Virus record (IMG/VR): IMGVR_UViG_3300025728_000005
Location: 1 to 48,063 of that record
Strand: one strand, 5' to 3'
Length of the DNA stretch: 48,063 bases
Source of the DNA: a virus
In this document: in pieces, positions 1 through 48,063 of the stretch
Position numbering within the stretch: position 1 is the stretch's first letter
How the letters are laid out: every line of letters begins with the position of its first letter
Translations under genes and position numbers: made by a program
The notes under the pieces: generated by a model
What the model saw: the letters and a program-made list of their open reading frames with translations, nothing else
What the model was told of the DNA's origin: nothing
Databases searched by the model: none

Positions 1-127
1 AGGAAGACGCTATTGCGGCGAACGCCGAAAGCCAGGCGACGATCACCACCCTGCAAGCCGAAGCCAAACGCAACGCTGCCTACAGCGCCGACCTGGCCAA
101 ACGCATCAAGGCCAGCGAAGACAAAGC
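1..127. repeat. Terminal duplication, left copy (assembly overlap)
   Basis: Bases 1-127 are identical to 47937-48063. The junction reads through Rz without a break, and 127 is a common assembler word length, so this is taken as circular-assembly overlap rather than a biological terminal repeat. Confidence 0.9.
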
Positions 128-7623: not shown

Positions 7624-8173
7624 CGACCTCGAAATGACCAAGGCCGTGTGCAGGATCGTCGTAGCGGCCACTGGACTACCGGCGAACAAGGTCATCATTG
7701 GCGACCCGGGTGACGCCTCACCGACCGGCAGCTACTGCGCTGTACGTCTGGACAATCCATCCCAGTACGGTCAGGCGCTCAACTCGCAAACCGATGTCGT
7801 CGCCACTGATGACCCGCAGTACAACGACATCCTCGCCAAGGTCGCCACCCAGTTCACTCTGGGCTTCAGCCTCAACTTCTACCGAGCGGGCGCCAAGCGT
7901 TACGCCGCCGCGATCTGCGAGGCGAACAAGCGCGAGCCGATTGCGGCCATCCTGCGCGCCGCCAAGCTCGGCTGGTCCCGCGTGTCACCGATCAACAACC
8001 TGACCGGCCTCTACCAGGCGGCCATGGAAGAACGCGCACAACTCACCCTGTACCTGTATGGCGAATCGATCGCCGAAGACCGCGTTCAGCGGATCTATCG
8101 CGCGGAATTCTCCGTGCAAACCGAACAATCTGGCGCCATTGCGCAAGGGGAAGTAAATGGCTTATCCGGCTGA
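7616..8173 (+). CDS. Neck terminator protein, gp12-like (LIC_12616 type)
   Basis: This 185-residue protein resembles the phage neck-terminator family: PTGSYCAVRLDNPSQYG near residue 40, a central FTLGFSLNFYRAGAK segment, and a C-terminal region with repeated aromatic and hydrophobic pairs. It should cap the finished tail and join it to the head. It overlaps both neighbours (8 and 17 bases), and the sheath gene begins before it ends. Confidence 0.8.
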   Translation: MLDDLEMTKAVCRIVVAATGLPANKVIIGDPGDASPTGSYCAVRLDNPSQYGQALNSQTDVVATDDPQYNDILAKVATQFTLGFSLNFYRAGAKRYAAAICEANKREPIAAILRAAKLGWSRVSPINNLTGLYQAAMEERAQLTLYLYGESIAEDRVQRIYRAEFSVQTEQSGAIAQGEVNGLSG

Positions 8174-9287
8174 AAGCATCATCAACATCACCACGCTGAT
8201 CAACTCGGCCGGGCTTGGTACTTCCAACTTCGGCGCGGGCATGGTCTTCGCGGACTTCGATTCGTCGAGCGACGTGACCTTTGTCGAAGGCACCTACCGC
8301 GACTACGGCTCGCCTACCCAGGTGGCTGCTGACTTCAACATCGCCTCCGACCCCTACGCTGCTGCATTGGCCTGGTTCTCGGCCGTACCGAAGCCGAAGA
8401 GCTTGCGCATCTACCTGCGTGTCGAACTGGATACCGTGGTCGAGTCGTTCAATGACGCGATCAGCAAGGGCATCTGGTTCTACTGGTTCGAGTTCGAGAC
8501 TGGTGTCCGCGCAGTTGATGCTGACGTGCTGGCCTTGGCTGCCGCTGGCGATGCCGCTGGCAAGTTCTTCGCCTACACCACCAACCAAGCTGGCGTGCGC
8601 GACCCGTCGGTTACCACCGACATCGTGACCAAGGCCGTGACCCAAGGCTCGCGTCGTGCGTTCGTGGCCAGCCACGCGACCGAGCTGTATGAAGGCTTCG
8701 AGATTGCTGCGGTGTTCAGCCGCGTCAACTTCAACGCCGCCAACTCGACCATCACCGGCGAATACAAAAAGCTGCCGGGGATCGACGCCGAAAGCCTGAC
8801 CCCGACCGCCTACGGGGCGATGAAGTCGAAAGGCGCCGTGTTCTACACCGTCGTCGAAACCGGTGGCGAGCGCGACAACGGCCGGATCATCAACTCGAAA
8901 ACCACGTCGACCTTCGGCGAGTATATCGACGATGTGTTCAACCTGGACGCCTTCGTCAACTTCATGACGGTCGCGCTGTACAACGCACTGACCAAGACGC
9001 CGACCAAGCTGCGCCAGACCCCTGCCGGTCAGCAAATCCTGATCGACGCGGCTGCACAGGTCGGCGAGAAGTTCATCGGCAACGGCTACCTGGGCGAGCG
9101 CCTGTACACCGACGACCAGACCGGCGAAGAGAAGACCAGCCGCGGCTACGAGATCCTGACCAAAGCCGAAGACATCCTGTTGATCTCCGACGCCGAGCGT
9201 GCTGCCCGTGGCTCCGCTCCGATCCGCATGCGCATCTTCCGTGCAGGCGCCATCCACACCGTCGACCTGACGGCCAACGTAGAATAA
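8157..9287 (+). CDS. Contractile tail sheath protein, DUF3383 family
   Basis: This 376-residue protein is of the DUF3383 type, the sheath of small contractile-tailed phages. It begins with a hydrophobic beta strand region (IINITTLINSAGLG), has the FYWFEFETGVRAVDADVLALA block and ends with an AGAIHTVDLTANVE strand, as expected for strands exchanged between neighbouring sheath subunits. Its presence shows a contractile tail. The tube gene follows after 13 bases. Confidence 0.88.
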   Translation: MAYPAESIINITTLINSAGLGTSNFGAGMVFADFDSSSDVTFVEGTYRDYGSPTQVAADFNIASDPYAAALAWFSAVPKPKSLRIYLRVELDTVVESFNDAISKGIWFYWFEFETGVRAVDADVLALAAAGDAAGKFFAYTTNQAGVRDPSVTTDIVTKAVTQGSRRAFVASHATELYEGFEIAAVFSRVNFNAANSTITGEYKKLPGIDAESLTPTAYGAMKSKGAVFYTVVETGGERDNGRIINSKTTSTFGEYIDDVFNLDAFVNFMTVALYNALTKTPTKLRQTPAGQQILIDAAAQVGEKFIGNGYLGERLYTDDQTGEEKTSRGYEILTKAEDILLISDAERAARGSAPIRMRIFRAGAIHTVDLTANVE

Positions 9288-24818: not shown

Positions 24819-25427
24819 TTATTCGTCGGTTTTGTCGCGAATCTTGGCTACTGTGGTCGGGCTGCACTCGGCCAATTCGGCCACTCTCTTCACCGATAGC
24901 GTCTTGTCGGTCAGCAGCGCCCTCACCCTTGCGTGCAGCAGCGCATCGACCGGCCTGCCCTTGTACTTCCCCGCCTTCTTGCTTTCCGCGATCCCTTGAG
25001 CCTGTCGGGTAGCTCGCGTCTCCCAGTCATCCCTTGCCATCTGCATGGCGACCTTGAGCAGCATGTCCTGCACTGCATCGAGGATGATCCGGGCCATGCC
25101 GCCGGCTTGAATGTCGGACAGGTCGACAATTCCCGGCACCACCAGCTTCGCCCCCTTCCCTTTGATCGCCGCAATGATCGCTTCTGCCTCTGGCAATGGC
25201 GCCCGAGTGATGCGGTCCATCTTCTCTGCGATCACCACGTCACCCGGCTGCAAATCGGCAATCATCCGATTCAGTGCAGGTCGGTCAGCACTGGTGCCGC
25301 TCATCTTGTCCTCGTAAATCCCCGCGATGTAATAACCTTCATCCCTCGCCTTTCCTACCAATGCCCGCTGCCGCTCAAGATCCTGTTCGGCTGTGCTGAC
25401 GCGCAGGTACACCCTGGCATTCTTCAT
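24819..25427 (-). CDS. Small serine recombinase (resolvase/invertase family)
   Basis: This 202-residue protein has the catalytic domain of small serine recombinases: the nucleophile is Ser11 in YLRVSTAEQ, with the conserved Arg region EKMDRITR (Arg72 and Arg75), helix E around residues 100-135 and a C-terminal helix-turn-helix (VKRVAELAECSPTTVAKI). It is full length for a resolvase or invertase and too short for a large serine integrase. No invertible gene segment was seen nearby. The 130 bases before the gene include an AT-rich stretch where its sites could lie. Confidence 0.85.
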   Translation of the reverse strand: MKNARVYLRVSTAEQDLERQRALVGKARDEGYYIAGIYEDKMSGTSADRPALNRMIADLQPGDVVIAEKMDRITRAPLPEAEAIIAAIKGKGAKLVVPGIVDLSDIQAGGMARIILDAVQDMLLKVAMQMARDDWETRATRQAQGIAESKKAGKYKGRPVDALLHARVRALLTDKTLSVKRVAELAECSPTTVAKIRDKTDE

Positions 25428-25557: not shown

Positions 25558-25893
25558 TTATGCCGCATCCCGGATCAAACCGTGATTGAGCGCGTATCGG
25601 TGAGCCTTGCGCAGCCGCTCAGGGTCAAGATCCAGCTCCCGTCCAGCCCCCTTCCAGCTTGAGCCGCGACTTCTCATGTCGTGCGCCTTCTGGATGGAGT
25701 CGAGCGGGAATGCAGCAGGCTTGCCCGGCTTTCGGTCGTAGCCGTCGAGCCCCTTGCCGATCCCGTTGCGTACCAGATGCGATACCTGGGCCGCGATCAG
25801 CCGAGGATCGCCACCCAATCCTTCGGCTATACGCTTCCAGCAGCAGCCCTCCTGTCTGAGTTCGTAGGCTAGGGCCAGTTCGTCAAGGGTCAT
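25558..25893 (-). CDS. Hypothetical protein with two HTH-like repeats
   Basis: This 111-residue protein starts at ATG 25893, overlapping the previous stop (ATGA); the longer frame to 26175 lies inside the neighbouring gene. Two similar helical units are visible (LALAYELRQEGCCWKRIAEG and IQKAHDMRSRGSSWKGAGRE), each followed by a basic helix (SHLVRNGIG, HRYALNHGL), suggesting a tandem helix-turn-helix DNA-binding protein. Confidence 0.65.
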   Translation of the reverse strand: MTLDELALAYELRQEGCCWKRIAEGLGGDPRLIAAQVSHLVRNGIGKGLDGYDRKPGKPAAFPLDSIQKAHDMRSRGSSWKGAGRELDLDPERLRKAHRYALNHGLIRDAA

Positions 25894-26435
25894 GGCTTCG
25901 TCTCGCCGGTATAGGTTCGCCACGGCACATTGCGGCCGCTGACCATGAAGCCCCAGTCGCCACGCCACTTGCTGGTGATGAACAGAGTGAATGCGCCTTC
26001 TGGCTGCACGTAGTCGATGCGGTGGTATTCGCCGAACGTCAGTGTCGCGGTATCGCCGGGGCGTCGGATGATTCGCACTCGCCGCGTTACCGACAGAATC
26101 GATTTTGTCCCTTGGCGGATTGCTGGCCGCTCTTCGGTGTAGCCACCACGCATAATGATCGTCCGCGCATTCCACGGGTGAGAGTGCAGGTCGCGGTCAG
26201 CATCCGGGCGCATGATGTGGTGTATACGGATCGACCACGGGAACCACCAGAACTTCGCCTTGTGCGTCTCGCGGCTGTAAGGGTTGAACAGCCACCAGCG
26301 GCCCATGTACATGTCGGAACCGTCGGCGGACATGATGTGCTGGTACGGGGTGCGCTGGGCTCGGGCGATGAGCCAGTTGGCGATGGCTGGGCGGGCAAGC
26401 AGCTTGGCGAACAGGCGCCAGAAGAGATTGATCAT
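25890..26435 (-). CDS. Cupin-like hypothetical protein
   Basis: This 181-residue protein has a hydrophobic, basic start (INLFWRLFAKLLARPAIANWLIA) and a cupin-like core with DLHSHPWNARTIIMRGGYTEE, a His-X-His pair and a later Glu/His (FGEYHRIDYV) that could bind a metal. Such proteins recur in phage early regions with unknown substrate. Its ends overlap both neighbours by four bases. Confidence 0.68.
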   Translation of the reverse strand: MINLFWRLFAKLLARPAIANWLIARAQRTPYQHIMSADGSDMYMGRWWLFNPYSRETHKAKFWWFPWSIRIHHIMRPDADRDLHSHPWNARTIIMRGGYTEERPAIRQGTKSILSVTRRVRIIRRPGDTATLTFGEYHRIDYVQPEGAFTLFITSKWRGDWGFMVSGRNVPWRTYTGETKP

Positions 26436-27673: not shown

Positions 27674-28564
27674 TTAAAGGGCTGCGAGGGTCCGCTCGTA
27701 CAGCTCGTCATGCTCGGCGGACATTGGCGATTCAGTGTGCTGGCGCTCGGCGACTAGCACGCCGCCCGACAGGAAGCCGGTGACGATCGGTGCGACAGTC
27801 TTGGCCTGTGTCACCAGAAACAGGTGCCCGTCGTTGATCACGCGCAGCTGCGAACGCGGAATCAGGTTGGCCATCATGCGCATGTTGACCAGCGGAATCA
27901 GGGGGTCGTCATTGCCGGCCAGTACCAGCGTCGGCTGCTTGATCTTGTGCAGCCAGTGCGCTGAGGTCCATGCCCAAACCGCCATGGCTTGATAGTAATA
28001 ACCGCGCCCGCTGGGCGATTTCATCTTGCTGGTGTGCGCGGTGGCCAGCGACTTGTCGTAACGGAACGCGCCGCCGTAGATGTCCGGGGCGATGCGTGCA
28101 CCGTGCTCGGGGTCGGTGTAGCGGCGTGGCGAGGCCATCAGGCTCAGCACCTTGAGTGATGGGGGCACCATGGCGACCCCGCAGGAGGTGGCAGCAAGGA
28201 TAAGTCGTCTGCACCGGTGCGGCTGGTCATAGGCGAACTGCTGGGCCAGAAAGCCTCCCCACGACACGCCGATCACGTTGACTTGGTCATAGCCCATCAC
28301 GTCCAGCATCGTGGCGACGGTCTTGGCCATGCCGCGAAAGGTGTACGGCAGCAGCGGAGCCGGCGAACCTCCGACACCGGGCACGTCGAAAGCGATGATT
28401 TCTTGGTCAGGGTCCAGCTCATTGGTGAACGGGATGACCAAGTCCAGCGATGCGCCGATGCCGTTGAACACCACCAGCGGGGTCAGGTGCGATTTACCTG
28501 GGCGAACCGCCGTCCTGATTGACAGCCCATCCACTTGAACAGTGCGGAAAACAAAAGCCTTCAT
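27674..28564 (-). CDS. phaZ: Medium-chain polyhydroxyalkanoate depolymerase PhaZ (phage-borne)
   Basis: This 296-residue alpha/beta hydrolase matches the intracellular mcl-PHA depolymerase of Pseudomonas along its length: [70 protein letters not shown] and [11 protein letters not shown]. The nucleophile is Ser101 in GVSWGG, with Asp220 in NDDP and His247 in DGHLF, one residue offset from the triad I recall for P. putida PhaZ (Ser102/Asp221/His248). It should release hydroxyacids from PHA granules. No signal peptide is seen. ATG 28564 is preceded by CGGAG. The gene has its own promoter and operator and lies behind a terminator, so it is separated from the operon upstream. Confidence 0.9.
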
Positions 28565-28581
28565 TGCGTCGTGCTCCGGTT

Positions 28582-28600: not shown

Positions 28601-28629
28601 ACTATGCGCTGACAATCCGATTAGGTCAA
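28601..28629 (-). promoter_or_regulatory. Promoter of phaZ
   Basis: On the - strand TTGACC (28629-28624) is separated by exactly 17 bases from CATAGT (28606-28601), giving a good sigma-70 promoter (five of six and four of six matches). The expected start of transcription, near 28594, falls within the operator palindrome. A second TTGACT lies 12 bases further upstream. Confidence 0.65.
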
Positions 28630-29007
28630 CGAACAAGTCAACGATTCGGACAAAAAGAAACCCGGCGAACCGGGCGGGTTTGGAGCGTTATTCAGATTGA
28701 TGGCGGCGATAGCCTTGGAATAATTTGGATTGTCGCTCAGCATCTTCTGAACACTGTCGCAATCGCCACCAAGAAAGGTGATTCGGTCATAACCAGCCTC
28801 CAGGCAGCAGGCGTAATCGCTGGTCATTGAAGAAAGCAGTGAGCGCATCTGCTCCAGATCCTCTCTGCATTGTCCGAGCAAAAGCATTGTTTCCGCATGA
28901 CTCTCGCAATTCAGCCGGTGCAGTTCTCGTATTTTTTCAAAATCGGCTGCATAGACATATTCGCCCGCTGCGCCTTTGAAGGTGTAACGCTTCACATCGT
29001 TCATCAT
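28621..29007 (-). CDS. Hypothetical protein
   Basis: This 128-residue protein starts at 29007 behind AGAGGGATCA, overlapping the stop of the small gene upstream. It is mostly helical with several Cys (YACCLEAGYD, GGDCDSV). No family recognised. Its 3' end contains the terminator at 28651-28674 and the phaZ promoter, so its last residues (PGSPGFFLSE...) are encoded by control DNA. Confidence 0.62.
   Translation of the reverse strand: MMNDVKRYTFKGAAGEYVYAADFEKIRELHRLNCESHAETMLLLGQCREDLEQMRSLLSSMTSDYACCLEAGYDRITFLGGDCDSVQKMLSDNPNYSKAIAAINLNNAPNPPGSPGFFLSESLTCSLT
28651..28674 (-). terminator. Intrinsic terminator upstream of phaZ
   Basis: On the - strand CCCGG-TTCG-CCGGG, a stable UUCG-type tetraloop hairpin, is followed by TTTCTTTTT. 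It lies inside the end of the preceding gene, so leftward early transcripts should stop here before phaZ. Confidence 0.8.
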
Positions 29008-29169: not shown

Positions 29170-29553
29170 TCAGGCACGACGAACCTTGAAGTAGATCATC
29201 GCCTTGGCACTATCGAAACACTCGTCTAGTCGCTCGAAAGCCTTGTACTTGGCCTGGCTGCGCGTGCAAGCCCATACGCGAACGATGTATTCGCGATCAA
29301 GCCACCAGCAGCCGTATTTCCCGCCAGCCAAAACTTCCCACTCCTTGAGCGGCAGATTGTCGGTTATTTCGCCGTACTCGATACCGTCAGTTGGGTGGTG
29401 CGGCCTGATGCGCTTCTCGGGGTCTTCATCCAGGCATACGCCTATGTAAGCATTGATCGCGCTCAGGATAACCCCAGGCTTCCCGTAGGCGGTCACTCGA
29501 CGGCCAATCTCGGCAGGAACTTTGTAGTAGTCACGAATATAGGAAAGGCTCAT
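29170..29553 (-). CDS. Hypothetical protein
   Basis: This 127-residue protein begins SLSYIRDYYKVPAEIGRRVTAYGKPGVI and has a small beta domain pattern with an Asp/Glu-rich centre and WWLDREYIVRVWACTRSQAKYKAF. Similar proteins occur in Pseudomonas phage early regions, function unknown. The upstream ribosome site is weak. Confidence 0.68.
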   Translation of the reverse strand: MSLSYIRDYYKVPAEIGRRVTAYGKPGVILSAINAYIGVCLDEDPEKRIRPHHPTDGIEYGEITDNLPLKEWEVLAGGKYGCWWLDREYIVRVWACTRSQAKYKAFERLDECFDSAKAMIYFKVRRA

Positions 29554-31721: not shown

Positions 31722-32393
31722 TTACTTCTTCAGCGCTTTGATCAGGTACGGATCGACGTCGGCCTGGCCGAGTAGCCAGCGCTTATAGTCGGCAGGGATG
31801 TCGGCGATTTTCGATCCGGCGTGCTTGCCGAAGCGGATCACGGTCGGGATGCGTGCCTCTTCTGAGATTTCCCACAACCGTTCCCAGCTTCCCAGTTCCT
31901 GACCGGGCTCAAAATTCAGGCAATTAATGATCGCGATCAGCAGTCGGCGGCAGTTGTGCACGTCGTCGAGCGCAGCGTGAGCGTTCTTCAGCAGCTCTCG
32001 CGCCTGGTCCCGGTAGTGCAGGTAGATCATCGCCGATTGGCTGTGCGAGTCAGCATCCGGCCAGAGCGAACGGCTCAGCGCCTGGGTGCAGATGCGTTTC
32101 ACGTCAGGCTGACCGATCACGCCCCAGTCATAGTCGACGTTGTGGCCGATGATGTAGGTGGTGCCGGCGGGAAGTGCGAACTCGGTGTGCGGCGGGCAGT
32201 CGACCAGATCCTCGTCGAGGATGTGCGCGGTAGCCATGGCACCAAGTTCAATCGGCTTTGATGGCTTGTAGCGCTGAAGGAATTGCTCAGCGACCGTCAG
32301 CGTCTGGATGCTTTCCAGTCGAAGCCATGCCGCCTCAGTTGGCTGCGGCTCTTTCAGGCCGGTTGTTTCGAAGTCGAGGATAATTGCTGTCAT
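31722..32393 (-). CDS. DnaQ-like 3'-5' exonuclease, ExoX type
   Basis: This 223-residue protein is a DEDDh exonuclease: IILDFETTG with the first Asp/Glu pair at residues 7 and 9, GHNVDYDWG (Asp of motif II) and HAALDDVHNCR (His and Asp of motif III). A C-terminal DUF3820-like domain (VIRFGKHAGSKIADIPADYKRWLL) is shared with ExoX-type phage nucleases. An ATG three codons upstream at 32402 is possible; both have weak ribosome sites. It probably trims DNA ends during recombination with ERF and SSB. Confidence 0.83.
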   Translation of the reverse strand: MTAIILDFETTGLKEPQPTEAAWLRLESIQTLTVAEQFLQRYKPSKPIELGAMATAHILDEDLVDCPPHTEFALPAGTTYIIGHNVDYDWGVIGQPDVKRICTQALSRSLWPDADSHSQSAMIYLHYRDQARELLKNAHAALDDVHNCRRLLIAIINCLNFEPGQELGSWERLWEISEEARIPTVIRFGKHAGSKIADIPADYKRWLLGQADVDPYLIKALKK

Positions 32394-32441
32394 GTATGTC
32401 ATCCGTTTTCAGTGTGATGGGATGGTGGCTCGAGCGAGGAT

Positions 32442-32897
32442 CTAGAACGGGATTTCTGGATCGTATTGCGAGTCATCGGGCTGCTGCGCTGATTGCTGGC
32501 TCCGTTGCTGCGATTGTTGACGCGACGCCGATTGCTGCTGGTCGCCATCCTGCGGCTTGCCGCCGAGCAGCTGCATGGTACCCTGCATATCCACGATGAT
32601 TTCCGTGGTGTAACGCTTGACCCCATCCTTCTCCCATTCACGGGTTTGCAGCTTGCCTTCGATGTACACCTGCGAGCCTTTACGCAGGTACTCCCCGGCA
32701 ATCTCGGCGACCTTACCGAACAGACAGACCCTATGCCATTCGGTTTTTTCGACCTTCTGGCCGGTTTGCTTGTCGGTCCACTGTTCGCTGGTGGCCAGGC
32801 TCAGATTTGTTACTGCGTTGCCGTTGGGCATGTAGCGAACTTCAGGATCCTGTCCGCATGTGCCGACCAAAATTACTTTATTGATGCCGCGTGCCAT
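32442..32897 (-). CDS. ssb: Single-stranded DNA-binding protein
   Basis: This 151-residue SSB has the OB-fold start [18 protein letters not shown], the [32 protein letters not shown] core, a Gln/Ser-rich linker and the acidic tip DPEIPF that binds partner proteins. It covers single strands in phage replication and recombination. It sits between ERF and the exonuclease. Confidence 0.93.
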
Positions 32898-32946: not shown

Positions 32947-33537
32947 TTATGCCGCTTGGCCCTGTGGTGCCAGTTCAGCCTTACGCTTGTCTTTTGCCTT
33001 GCCGAAGGTCTCGCCCATTTTCTTGTTGTTCGCGTCCTTCGCTGCTGCAAGGCCGGCGTCGAATGCATTTTTCAGCGACGCCATGTCCGGCGCCTTGGCG
33101 ATGTCAGCAATCATGGCTGTCCAGTCGTACTGGTTCGTCGATTGCTGCCGGCTCTGCTGCTGAGCCCCTGTCGTCGAATCGAGTGCGTCGTGCTCGACGA
33201 TTTCCAGCGCCGTCACATACAGGTAGCGCCGCTGGTAGGTCTCAACTGCGCCGATGTTCTGGACTTCGTGGCAGCCCTTGAGCGCCGCACTGCCCATCGG
33301 GCTGGTGAACTCGACAGACGTGCCGTCTTCCACGTCCACAACCTTCAGGGTGGCAAGCTCAACCCCGAACGAGACGATCCCGCACAGACCCTTCTCTTTG
33401 AAAAGGTCATTGATTGCCGGCAGGAAGTCGCCCAGCTCGAAGTAGCTGTAGCCAGCAAACTTGTTCTCGCCGGTCTTTTTCAGGGTCATGCGCTGCATTT
33501 CGCAGCGGGCTTCTTGGAGCTTTTTGTAGACGCTCAT
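32947..33537 (-). CDS. ERF family single-strand annealing protein
   Basis: This 196-residue protein starts at ATG 33537 behind GAGGTGC. The ERF pattern is clear: YKKLQEARCEMQRMTLKKTGENKF, YSYFELGDFLPAINDLFKEKGL, then GAVETYQRRYLYVTALEI. The C-terminal part is a Gln-rich link and a Lys/Ala-rich helix. It anneals complementary strands in phage recombination together with SSB. Confidence 0.9.
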   Translation of the reverse strand: MSVYKKLQEARCEMQRMTLKKTGENKFAGYSYFELGDFLPAINDLFKEKGLCGIVSFGVELATLKVVDVEDGTSVEFTSPMGSAALKGCHEVQNIGAVETYQRRYLYVTALEIVEHDALDSTTGAQQQSRQQSTNQYDWTAMIADIAKAPDMASLKNAFDAGLAAAKDANNKKMGETFGKAKDKRKAELAPQGQAA

Positions 33538-33545
33538 GGCGCACC

Positions 33546-33689
33546 TCAAATTGGTTGGTTGTCCCACTGGCGTTCAATCTTGATCGCCTCGTCTTCGTAC
33601 TCTTTGCGGTCATCGCCCTGGAACTGCTCGGGGTCGAACGCGCCTACCGTCATCCAGTCGAGCTGGGCGGTCAGTCGTGGTGTGTTCAT
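33546..33689 (-). CDS. Small hypothetical protein
   Basis: This 47-residue protein starts at ATG 33689 (NTPRLTAQLDWMTVGAFD) and has an acidic centre. It lies between the coiled-coil protein and ERF with short gaps, so it is probably translated as part of the recombination operon. Unknown function. Confidence 0.58.
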   Translation of the reverse strand: MNTPRLTAQLDWMTVGAFDPEQFQGDDRKEYEDEAIKIERQWDNQPI

Positions 33690-33696
33690 GGGCGCC

Positions 33697-34791
33697 TCAG
33701 AAGTTGATGGTGATGTTCGGCACTTCACCGCGGTAGATTTTCAGAACGAGCGCCTTGGCCAGTTCTTCGGTGACGTTCATCGACATGATTGCCAGCTTCG
33801 CCTCGCCCATGATTTTCGACTTGTGCGCCGTATCGGCTGCGCGGGCGTTCTGCTGGCGGACAATCTCGGCGGCGGCATCGTCTGCGCGCTTCTGCTCATC
33901 CAGACGCGCCTGCTCGACTGCCTGCTCTTGCCGGGTTGCAGCCTCCTTGCGCTCACGTTCGGCGCGCTGCTCGGCCTCTTCCTGGTCGCGCTTTGCCTGC
34001 TCAGCCTTGCGCTCAGACTCGGCCGCAGCCAGCTTCAGGTCGTTCTCGCGCTTGGCTGCTGCCGCCTGCTCGTCCTTCACCCGCTGCGCTTCTGCATCCC
34101 GCTCGCGCTGCGCCTTCTGTTCCGCCTCGATGCGCGCCTTCTCGGCAGCCTCGTGGGCGATTCGTTGCTCGCGGTCTTTCTGCTCCTGCGCCTCTTTCTC
34201 GGCGCGCAGCCTGATCAGTTCGGCCTGTTCCGACTCGTACTGCTCCTGGTCGGCCAGGGCCTTGCGCAGAATCACCAAGGCGGCAGCCTTTGCCCGGTGC
34301 GCGTCGGCCTCGAACTCTTCCAGCTCCTGGTTGATCTCCAGACTGTCCAGGTCCTGGACCTTGGCGCCGATCAGTGCCGCGGTCATGCCGGCGGTGTCGG
34401 TGTTTTCGATGTGCGCGATCACGGCCTTGTGCGCAGCGACCCGGGCTTCCTCTTTCTCCTCCCACTCATTCAGTGGGCGGCGAACCTGCTCCTGCAGCGA
34501 CTCCAGGGTTTCGCGCATTCGCTTGCGCTCGGCGTCGATCAGCTTCGGGACTTCCTTCAGCTCGGCGACCAGCTTTTTGCCGGCGTCGTCCAGGGCCACT
34601 TTCGACTTCGCGACCTTGTGGGCGATCGAGGCGATGGCGGCGCGACCCTTGGCGGTGCTGGTGTCCGGCACGAACGACATAACCTCGTCGCGGATCTTTT
34701 GTAGCCATGGCTCCAGGCCGTTCGGCGCGCTGTACACGGCCAGCGCTGTTTTTTTCGGTGGCACGGTGGCCAATTCAGTAGTTGCAGACAT
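33697..34791 (-). CDS. Long coiled-coil protein of the recombination operon
   Basis: This 364-residue protein has a helical N-terminal domain (about 1-130) resembling phage DUF1351-type proteins and a long Ala/Glu/Lys/Arg/Gln coiled coil (about 130-325), with a short C-terminal domain ending in VLKIYRGEVPNITINF. Comparable genes lie beside ERF and SSB in many phages; the frequent TolA-like label reflects composition only. Probably an accessory to recombination. Confidence 0.75.
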   Translation of the reverse strand: MSATTELATVPPKKTALAVYSAPNGLEPWLQKIRDEVMSFVPDTSTAKGRAAIASIAHKVAKSKVALDDAGKKLVAELKEVPKLIDAERKRMRETLESLQEQVRRPLNEWEEKEEARVAAHKAVIAHIENTDTAGMTAALIGAKVQDLDSLEINQELEEFEADAHRAKAAALVILRKALADQEQYESEQAELIRLRAEKEAQEQKDREQRIAHEAAEKARIEAEQKAQRERDAEAQRVKDEQAAAAKRENDLKLAAAESERKAEQAKRDQEEAEQRAERERKEAATRQEQAVEQARLDEQKRADDAAAEIVRQQNARAADTAHKSKIMGEAKLAIMSMNVTEELAKALVLKIYRGEVPNITINF

Positions 34792-47280: not shown

Positions 47281-47357
47281 GGCGAGTTCCACTGTCTGGT
47301 GATGTGGCAAGGCTCATAACCTTGATCAGGTCGGTTCGATCCCGACACTCGCTACCA
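47281..47357 (+). tRNA. tRNA with anticodon CAU (Met, or Ile2)
   Basis: A full 77-nt cloverleaf with encoded CCA: acceptor GGCGAGT/ACTCGCT (first pair G-U), a D-arm with loop GG, anticodon stem CAAGG/CCTTG, loop CTCATAA with CAT at 47315-47317, variable region ATCAG, and T-arm GTCGG-TTCGATC-CCGAC, then A and CCA. CAU may be elongator Met or, if lysidine-modified, Ile for AUA codons. It is transcribed from the late promoter just before a terminator. Confidence 0.9.
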
Positions 47358-47819: not shown

Positions 47820-48063
47820 ACATGAGAGCGATCGCCGCAGCAATCATCATCGCTCTGGTCGCCATGCTGCTCATTGGCGTCCAGCAGTATCGCGTCACCA
47901 CCTTGCGCGCCGAAATGCAGATCGAAACCAAGAGCAAGGAAGACGCTATTGCGGCGAACGCCGAAAGCCAGGCGACGATCACCACCCTGCAAGCCGAAGC
48001 CAAACGCAACGCTGCCTACAGCGCCGACCTGGCCAAACGCATCAAGGCCAGCGAAGACAAAGC
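47816..48063 (+). CDS. Rz: Rz-like i-spanin, 5' part (continues at base 1 of the circle)
   Basis: ATG 47816 overlaps the holin stop. The N-terminal signal anchor (AIAAAIIIALVAMLLIGVQQY) is followed by the charged periplasmic helix. The frame runs off the window end; bases 47937-48063 equal bases 1-127, and the rest of the gene is at 128-263. Confidence 0.87.
   Translation, partial: MNMRAIAAAIIIALVAMLLIGVQQYRVTTLRAEMQIETKSKEDAIAANAESQATITTLQAEAKRNAAYSADLAKRIKASEDK
47937..48063. repeat. Terminal duplication, right copy (assembly overlap)
   Basis: This is the exact copy of bases 1-127, inside the Rz gene. Removing one copy gives a circle of 47,936 bases. Confidence 0.9.

Follow-up and report, generated by a model that had tools for sequence, protein, structure and literature searches.

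A predicted mcl-PHA depolymerase gene in the early operon of a contractile-tailed phage recurs in unrelated phages

For starved bacteria in soil and water PHA is a main store of carbon, and the metabolic genes known from phages belong mostly to photosynthesis or to nucleotide, phosphate or central carbon metabolism. The intracellular degradation of mcl-PHA has been described as a trait of the genus Pseudomonas (PMC12504323). In the PhaZ depolymerase of P. putida KT2440 the FNGIG loop (residues 34-38) with Asn35 and the lid (residues 133-192) are experimentally essential, changes in the hinge abolished or altered the activity, and changes in lid and hinge alter the choice of substrate; the single hinge change S184F raises the esterase activity and nearly abolishes that of the depolymerase (PMC12504323). 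In PHA-producing mixed cultures, phages have been described that carry the PHA-synthesis genes phaC, phbB, fadJ, acs, ackA, acdAB and fadD (mSystems 2025, PMC12013262). Like the gene presented here, these are phage-borne genes of PHA metabolism recovered from metagenomes; however, they serve synthesis and phaZ is not among them, whereas our gene encodes a degrading enzyme and belongs to what appears to be a widespread lineage of its own. An original prediction, made from the letters of this DNA alone, knew of no system in which a phage directs PHA mobilisation. A literature search, run without most subscription journals and preprints, likewise revealed no earlier report of a phage-borne phaZ, the nearest being the phage phaC of 2025 (PMC12013262).

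Compared with PhaZ of KT2440 and other pseudomonads, the phage proteins described below have in common the TIGR02240 family match, the catalytic triad, the FNGIG loop, a lid of about 60 residues and the overall length. They differ by an identity of at most 74%, by seven substitutions common among phages and by the C-terminal tail with the motif EERQRAVMHP, which the pseudomonad enzymes have and most phage copies lack. Furthermore, the pseudomonad gene has phaC1 and phaC2 as neighbours, whereas the phage copies never lie beside them. More remote is the intracellular PHB depolymerase PhaZ of Bacillus thuringiensis (8ynv), which has the same fold but only 16-17% identity and is an enzyme for short-chain PHB.

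The stretch of DNA analysed, called the window in the following, is a viral record of 48,063 nt. An identical stretch of 127 bp at both ends makes a complete phage genome of about 47.9 kb very probable (Table 1). On the plus strand, PHROG matches identify portal, head protease, major head protein, tail sheath, tape measure, the large terminase subunit TerL and endolysin; on the minus strand they identify an exonuclease and an Erf-like protein. A gene for a single-stranded DNA-binding protein (SSB) is located between the latter two. An anti-repressor, an O-like protein and a DnaC-like protein are also encoded. No integrase was found among the window genes scanned. Bacterial flanks are absent, and phage hallmarks lie on both sides of phaZ. 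By DNA comparison the nearest cultured relatives are Pseudomonas phages, with which only short stretches are alike. A tRNA-Met gene is located close to the end of the record (positions 47281-47357).

Table 1. Features of the window that bear on phaZ and its genome context
Feature	Position	Strand	Evidence
Terminal direct repeat, left copy	1..127	.	end-to-end sequence identity
Tail sheath protein, contractile tail	8157..9287	+	PHROG match
Terminase large subunit, phage hallmark	18256..19866	+	PHROG match
Serine recombinase, small, resolvase/invertase type, end of early operon	24819..25427	-	PHROG match
Pentapeptide-repeat protein, directly downstream of phaZ (28-bp gap); also downstream in L003	26977..27645	-	
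phaZ, mcl-PHA depolymerase-like alpha/beta hydrolase, 296 aa, triad Ser101/Asp220/His247	27674..28564	-	reading frame, TIGR02240, alignment, model
GGAG, Shine-Dalgarno-like motif, 9 nt upstream of the phaZ ATG	28574..28577	-	sequence
Small protein, directly upstream of phaZ	28621..29007	-	
Phage protein phrog_16342	29170..29553	-	PHROG match
Phage protein phrog_5439, end of the conserved genes ahead of the variable, phaZ-bearing segment	29591..29968	-	PHROG match
Exonuclease phrog_192, early operon	31722..32402	-	PHROG match
Single-stranded DNA-binding protein, early operon	32442..32897	-	matches annotated phage SSB
Erf-like ssDNA annealing protein, early operon	32947..33567	-	PHROG match
phrog_1376 protein, early operon	33697..34791	-	PHROG match
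Terminal direct repeat, right copy	47937..48063	.	end-to-end sequence identity

The phaZ reading frame is intact from the ATG at 28564 to the stop codon at 27674-27676, on the minus strand, which the original prediction had not specified. A longer frame is possible from a TTG at 28636, but it is the ATG that has the GGAG motif in front of it. Its assignment as mcl-PHA depolymerase in the original prediction is borne out by the NCBIfam equivalog TIGR02240 (poly(3-hydroxyalkanoate) or mcl-PHA depolymerase), which the protein matches with 406.8 bits (E=4.5e-122) against a curated cut-off of 250.6 bits; the next-best NCBIfam families are PcaD-like and reach 106-113 bits, far under their own cut-offs. 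The protein scored above the TIGR02240 cut-off in the genome search as well, and all 24 tested members, phage and host, matched this family. The proposed triad also holds, and its residues align with Ser102, Asp221 and His248 of KT2440 PhaZ. A check of relatives had been suggested at the outset; here the closest proteins proved to be other phage PhaZ copies (73-99% identity), followed by Pseudomonas PhaZ (about 66%), and not esterases of other kinds. A second phaZ was not found in the window.

As predicted, phaZ stands alone in the early region of the phage: it is part of the early operon, and no phaC-like open reading frame was seen among the genes around it. It is co-directional with the recombination genes and lies downstream of them. 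The phrog_1376 protein served as query for viral contigs with the same early operon, including relatives without phaZ. Past the homologue of the phrog_5439 gene the gene content of these relatives diverges, and among close relatives phaZ was present only in a near-identical contig (L002/L197), while L003, L006, L007, L008 and L017 carry it at the same relative place. Because the content after the last conserved early gene varies among relatives, phaZ of the window is cargo, placed in a segment whose genes change from one related phage to the next. A promoter scan of the window returned fewer promoter-like sites than were obtained in shuffled sequences. The pentapeptide-repeat protein is long and consists of near-identical repeats of 10 letters, and the number of repeats differs in L003. 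In the same operon, positions 25890-26435 encode a cupin-like protein with a match to phrog_4786, annotated as cysteine dioxygenase.

We consider it likely that phage phaZ is an auxiliary metabolic gene for an active intracellular mcl-PHA depolymerase, by which host PHA would be mobilised in the course of infection. Early expression, granule hydrolysis and a benefit to the phage, which we infer, would be connected as follows. PhaZ would be made early in infection from the leftward operon of the phage and would attack the polyester granules of the infected Pseudomonas cell, giving rise to (R)-3-hydroxyalkanoic acids. The acyl-CoA synthetase and the beta-oxidation of the host would then convert these hydroxyacids to acetyl-CoA, NADH and ATP for phage replication. 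The effect should be greatest in starved, PHA-rich cells, in which external carbon is scarce and the balance of host PhaZ and PhaC alone would hold the carbon in store. The location of phaZ between recombination and lysis genes, or beside the DNA polymerase gene in a Noxifer-like jumbo phage, fits a use in lytic growth. If such a widely shared depolymerase proves true, phages would tap the storage granules of their hosts directly, phage productivity would be tied to the state of the host's carbon stores, and the long-standing problem of phage reproduction in starved cells would become testable.

PhaZ was found in 46 further IMG/VR contigs with 50-99% identity. Together with the window these fall into 13 groups according to common neighbouring proteins, the grouping being based on stretches of 5-21 kb rather than on whole genomes. 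Phage genes near phaZ were identified in most groups and encode a head protein (L025), NinB (L039), virion proteins and DNA polymerase (L045), a lytic tail or endolysin-type protein (L014), RIIB (L026), a baseplate wedge protein (L052), a tail fibre and a nicotinamide phosphoribosyltransferase (L018), and PhoH and terminase (L049). For L016, L029, L042, L046 and L047 the phage status leans more on IMG/VR and on weaker matches. A terminase search with PF03237, a model too narrow for these phages, was over the cut-off in 3 of 21 viral records. The ends of the contigs truncate phaZ in L005 and L052, and the L035 copy contains a single in-frame stop. None of 50,697 records of cultured phages exceeded 33% identity to the window PhaZ in a direct search, and L018 and L042 had no counterpart among phages by megablast. 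The nicotinamide phosphoribosyltransferase gene (L018, 217-1965), which belongs to NAD salvage, is a second metabolic gene in the phaZ region of that contig.

In the 283-kb contig L045, phaZ is located between homologues of Noxifer gp082 (78%) and of the NTP pyrophosphohydrolase gp080 (70%), downstream of the DNA polymerase gene (84%). Of the 20.8 kb of L045 compared with Noxifer, a jumbo phage of P. fluorescens SBW25, 64% align with 77% identity, and the genes around DNA polymerase and NTP pyrophosphohydrolase follow one another in the same order in both. However, in Noxifer the hypothetical gp081 occupies the place of phaZ, and no phaZ match was present in this phage. Phages of the L025 type (about 48 kb) have a slot between head or capsid genes and tail genes, in which phaZ, where present, is solitary and antisense. 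Where the slot is visible it holds phaZ in 12 of 34 loci and different cargo in others; in L174 it measures only 219 bp. Inspection by eye of L161-L191 showed that other antisense cargo includes proteins of about 310 aa, a TerB-like protein and a prohibitin/lipoprotein-like protein. ParA-like partition genes were likewise noticed by eye near phaZ in L029 (4609-5310) and L043 (4010-4696), which suggests that carriers of this type may in part be phage-plasmids.

This variety of contexts has to be considered with respect to the benefit that the phage might draw from a working depolymerase. Instead of supplying fuel for replication, the enzyme could serve the lysogen, block the lock-up of carbon in PHA by the host, or remove granules that stand in the way of replication or lysis. 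The antisense, solitary position in the capsid/tail cargo slot of the L025 type is typical of genes with their own promoter, some carriers with ParA-like genes (L029, L043) may persist as phage-plasmids, and the three orphan bacterial copies described below show that such genes can settle in cells. In contrast, the location of the window phaZ in an early operon with recombination genes and that of the Noxifer-like phaZ beside DNA polymerase both fit lytic growth, and in 400 Pseudomonas genomes no phage-type copy was found that is as close as the copies of related phages. A benefit of this other kind is rather unlikely in our judgement, and a role in fuelling replication remains the preferred reading.

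The catalytic parts of the window protein are complete. Its lipase box reads GVSWGG, and G[VIL]SWGG is invariant across phage copies; the catalytic Ser and Asp are kept in 46 of 46 aligned phage copies and the His in every copy that reaches this position. The FNGIG loop, the equivalent of Asn35 and a full-length lid are present in the window PhaZ. Among phage copies FNGIG is kept, Asn35 is found in 43 of 45, and the lid comprises 60-67 aa. The substitutions N40S, A106F, G136P, K137S, S154E, V182M and D219N replace residues fixed in hosts in at least 80% of phage copies. A106F adjoins the nucleophile motif, G136P and K137S mark the start of the lid, S154E and V182M lie within the lid, and D219N is two positions before the catalytic Asp. 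At the hinge (190-195) the host sequence YYWQLF is replaced by YYYQAM in the window PhaZ, and this segment is variable among phages. The conserved host tail is missing or replaced in most phage copies. The AlphaFold model of the window protein (pLDDT 84.9, pTM 0.85) shows a complete alpha/beta-hydrolase with a helical lid, with residues 269-282 disordered. Since the solved structures nearest to this model are general esterases, with a Bacillus PHB depolymerase at rank 9, fold comparison does not fix the substrate. Among the top 50 viral proteins in BFVD, none matched the model with more than 22% identity.

As changes in lid and hinge alter the substrate choice of KT2440 PhaZ, a tuned or shifted activity of the phage enzymes is possible. 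Taken further, this would mean that the phage protein is a PhaZ-derived esterase or lactonase which acts on another target, such as a membrane lipid, a signal molecule or a modified host metabolite, and is no longer a granule depolymerase. The fixed phage-specific substitutions at the nucleophile elbow and in the lid, the variable hinge and the loss of the host tail are in line with such a shift, as is the presence of Ala at the Ser184 position in 20 of 45 phage copies, given that S184F flips the activity of the KT2440 enzyme (PMC12504323). However, the window copy retains Ser at this position (alignment by eye), Asn35, FNGIG and the full lid length, it scores far above the TIGR02240 cut-off, and its closest cellular relatives are Pseudomonas PhaZ proteins and no other hydrolases. 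Such a shift of substrate seems improbable to us.

In the hosts, phaZ had been described by the original prediction as lying between the two PHA synthase genes. This agrees with our survey, in which phaC homologues adjoined phaZ in 79 of 80 Pseudomonas host loci versus 0 of 46 viral loci; the host gene usually has this phaC1/phaC2 context, but membership in the enzyme family does not require it. PhaZ was detected in 365 of 400 Pseudomonas genomes, none being more than 68% identical to the window protein. Compared with 79 host PhaZ proteins, the phage copies reach a best identity of 55-74% and the window protein one of 66%. Among 369 genomes sampled across the class, the Pseudomonas centre genome alone passed E 1e-85; a first scan of genome contigs with a single protein as query had given no match. 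In maximum-likelihood trees the operon-borne host PhaZ proteins form one group (support 100/97) with every phage copy outside of it. A recent capture from a Pseudomonas host is rejected by this tree and by the identity of at most 68% in the 400 genomes. Three orphan bacterial copies (L010, L062, L151) nest in the phage group; two are on megaplasmids and one is chromosomal, and none lies beside phaC. With these copies inside, a strict phage-only clade is rejected (p-AU 0.024). The branch that unites phage and orphan copies has modest support (80/84), and a single origin of both is favoured but not proven.

Median dN/dS values within phage groups are 0.07-0.20; phage phaZ is under purifying selection. 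GC and GC3 of phaZ track the GC content of each phage contig (0.40-0.59), a base composition that fits long-resident genes. Contamination by host DNA is rejected by the terminal repeat, the phage hallmarks and the lack of phaC. Although only one gene with a clear bacterial relative is concerned, the most improbable alternative, a functionless host fragment recently packaged, transduced or misassembled into the contig, is refuted by the terminal repeat of a complete genome, the recurrence of gene and flanks in a second contig (L002/L197), an identity that does not exceed 68% to any PhaZ in the 400 Pseudomonas genomes, purifying selection, 13 phage neighbourhoods and the absence of phaC.

The original prediction underrated the finding, as phaZ recurs in unrelated phages, is under purifying selection and has a lineage of its own with marked substitutions. 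Beyond the single gene we lean, with some reserve, towards the broader view that a phage-specialised and structurally tuned PhaZ lineage has spread among many unrelated phages, a Noxifer-like jumbo phage among them, and that mobilisation of host PHA is a common strategy of Pseudomonas phages. If true, this strategy would let Pseudomonas phages replicate in starved, PHA-rich cells. The phage PhaZ proteins would at the same time offer polyester recycling a choice of mcl-PHA depolymerases that have diversified in nature.

The two megaplasmid copies, from P. silesiensis pPL1 (L010, 5977-6870) and from a P. serbica plasmid (L062, 6001-6798), resemble the phage copies in their position within the phage lineage, their phage-type signature residues and the lack of phaC, but differ in being carried on plasmids of more than 1 Mb. 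They were probably acquired from phages or from a common mobile pool. The chromosomal copy (L151, 1408-2298; G232:C9) is 57% identical to the window PhaZ and occurs in a genome which has a normal copy too. It groups with the jumbo-phage copies of L045 and L046.
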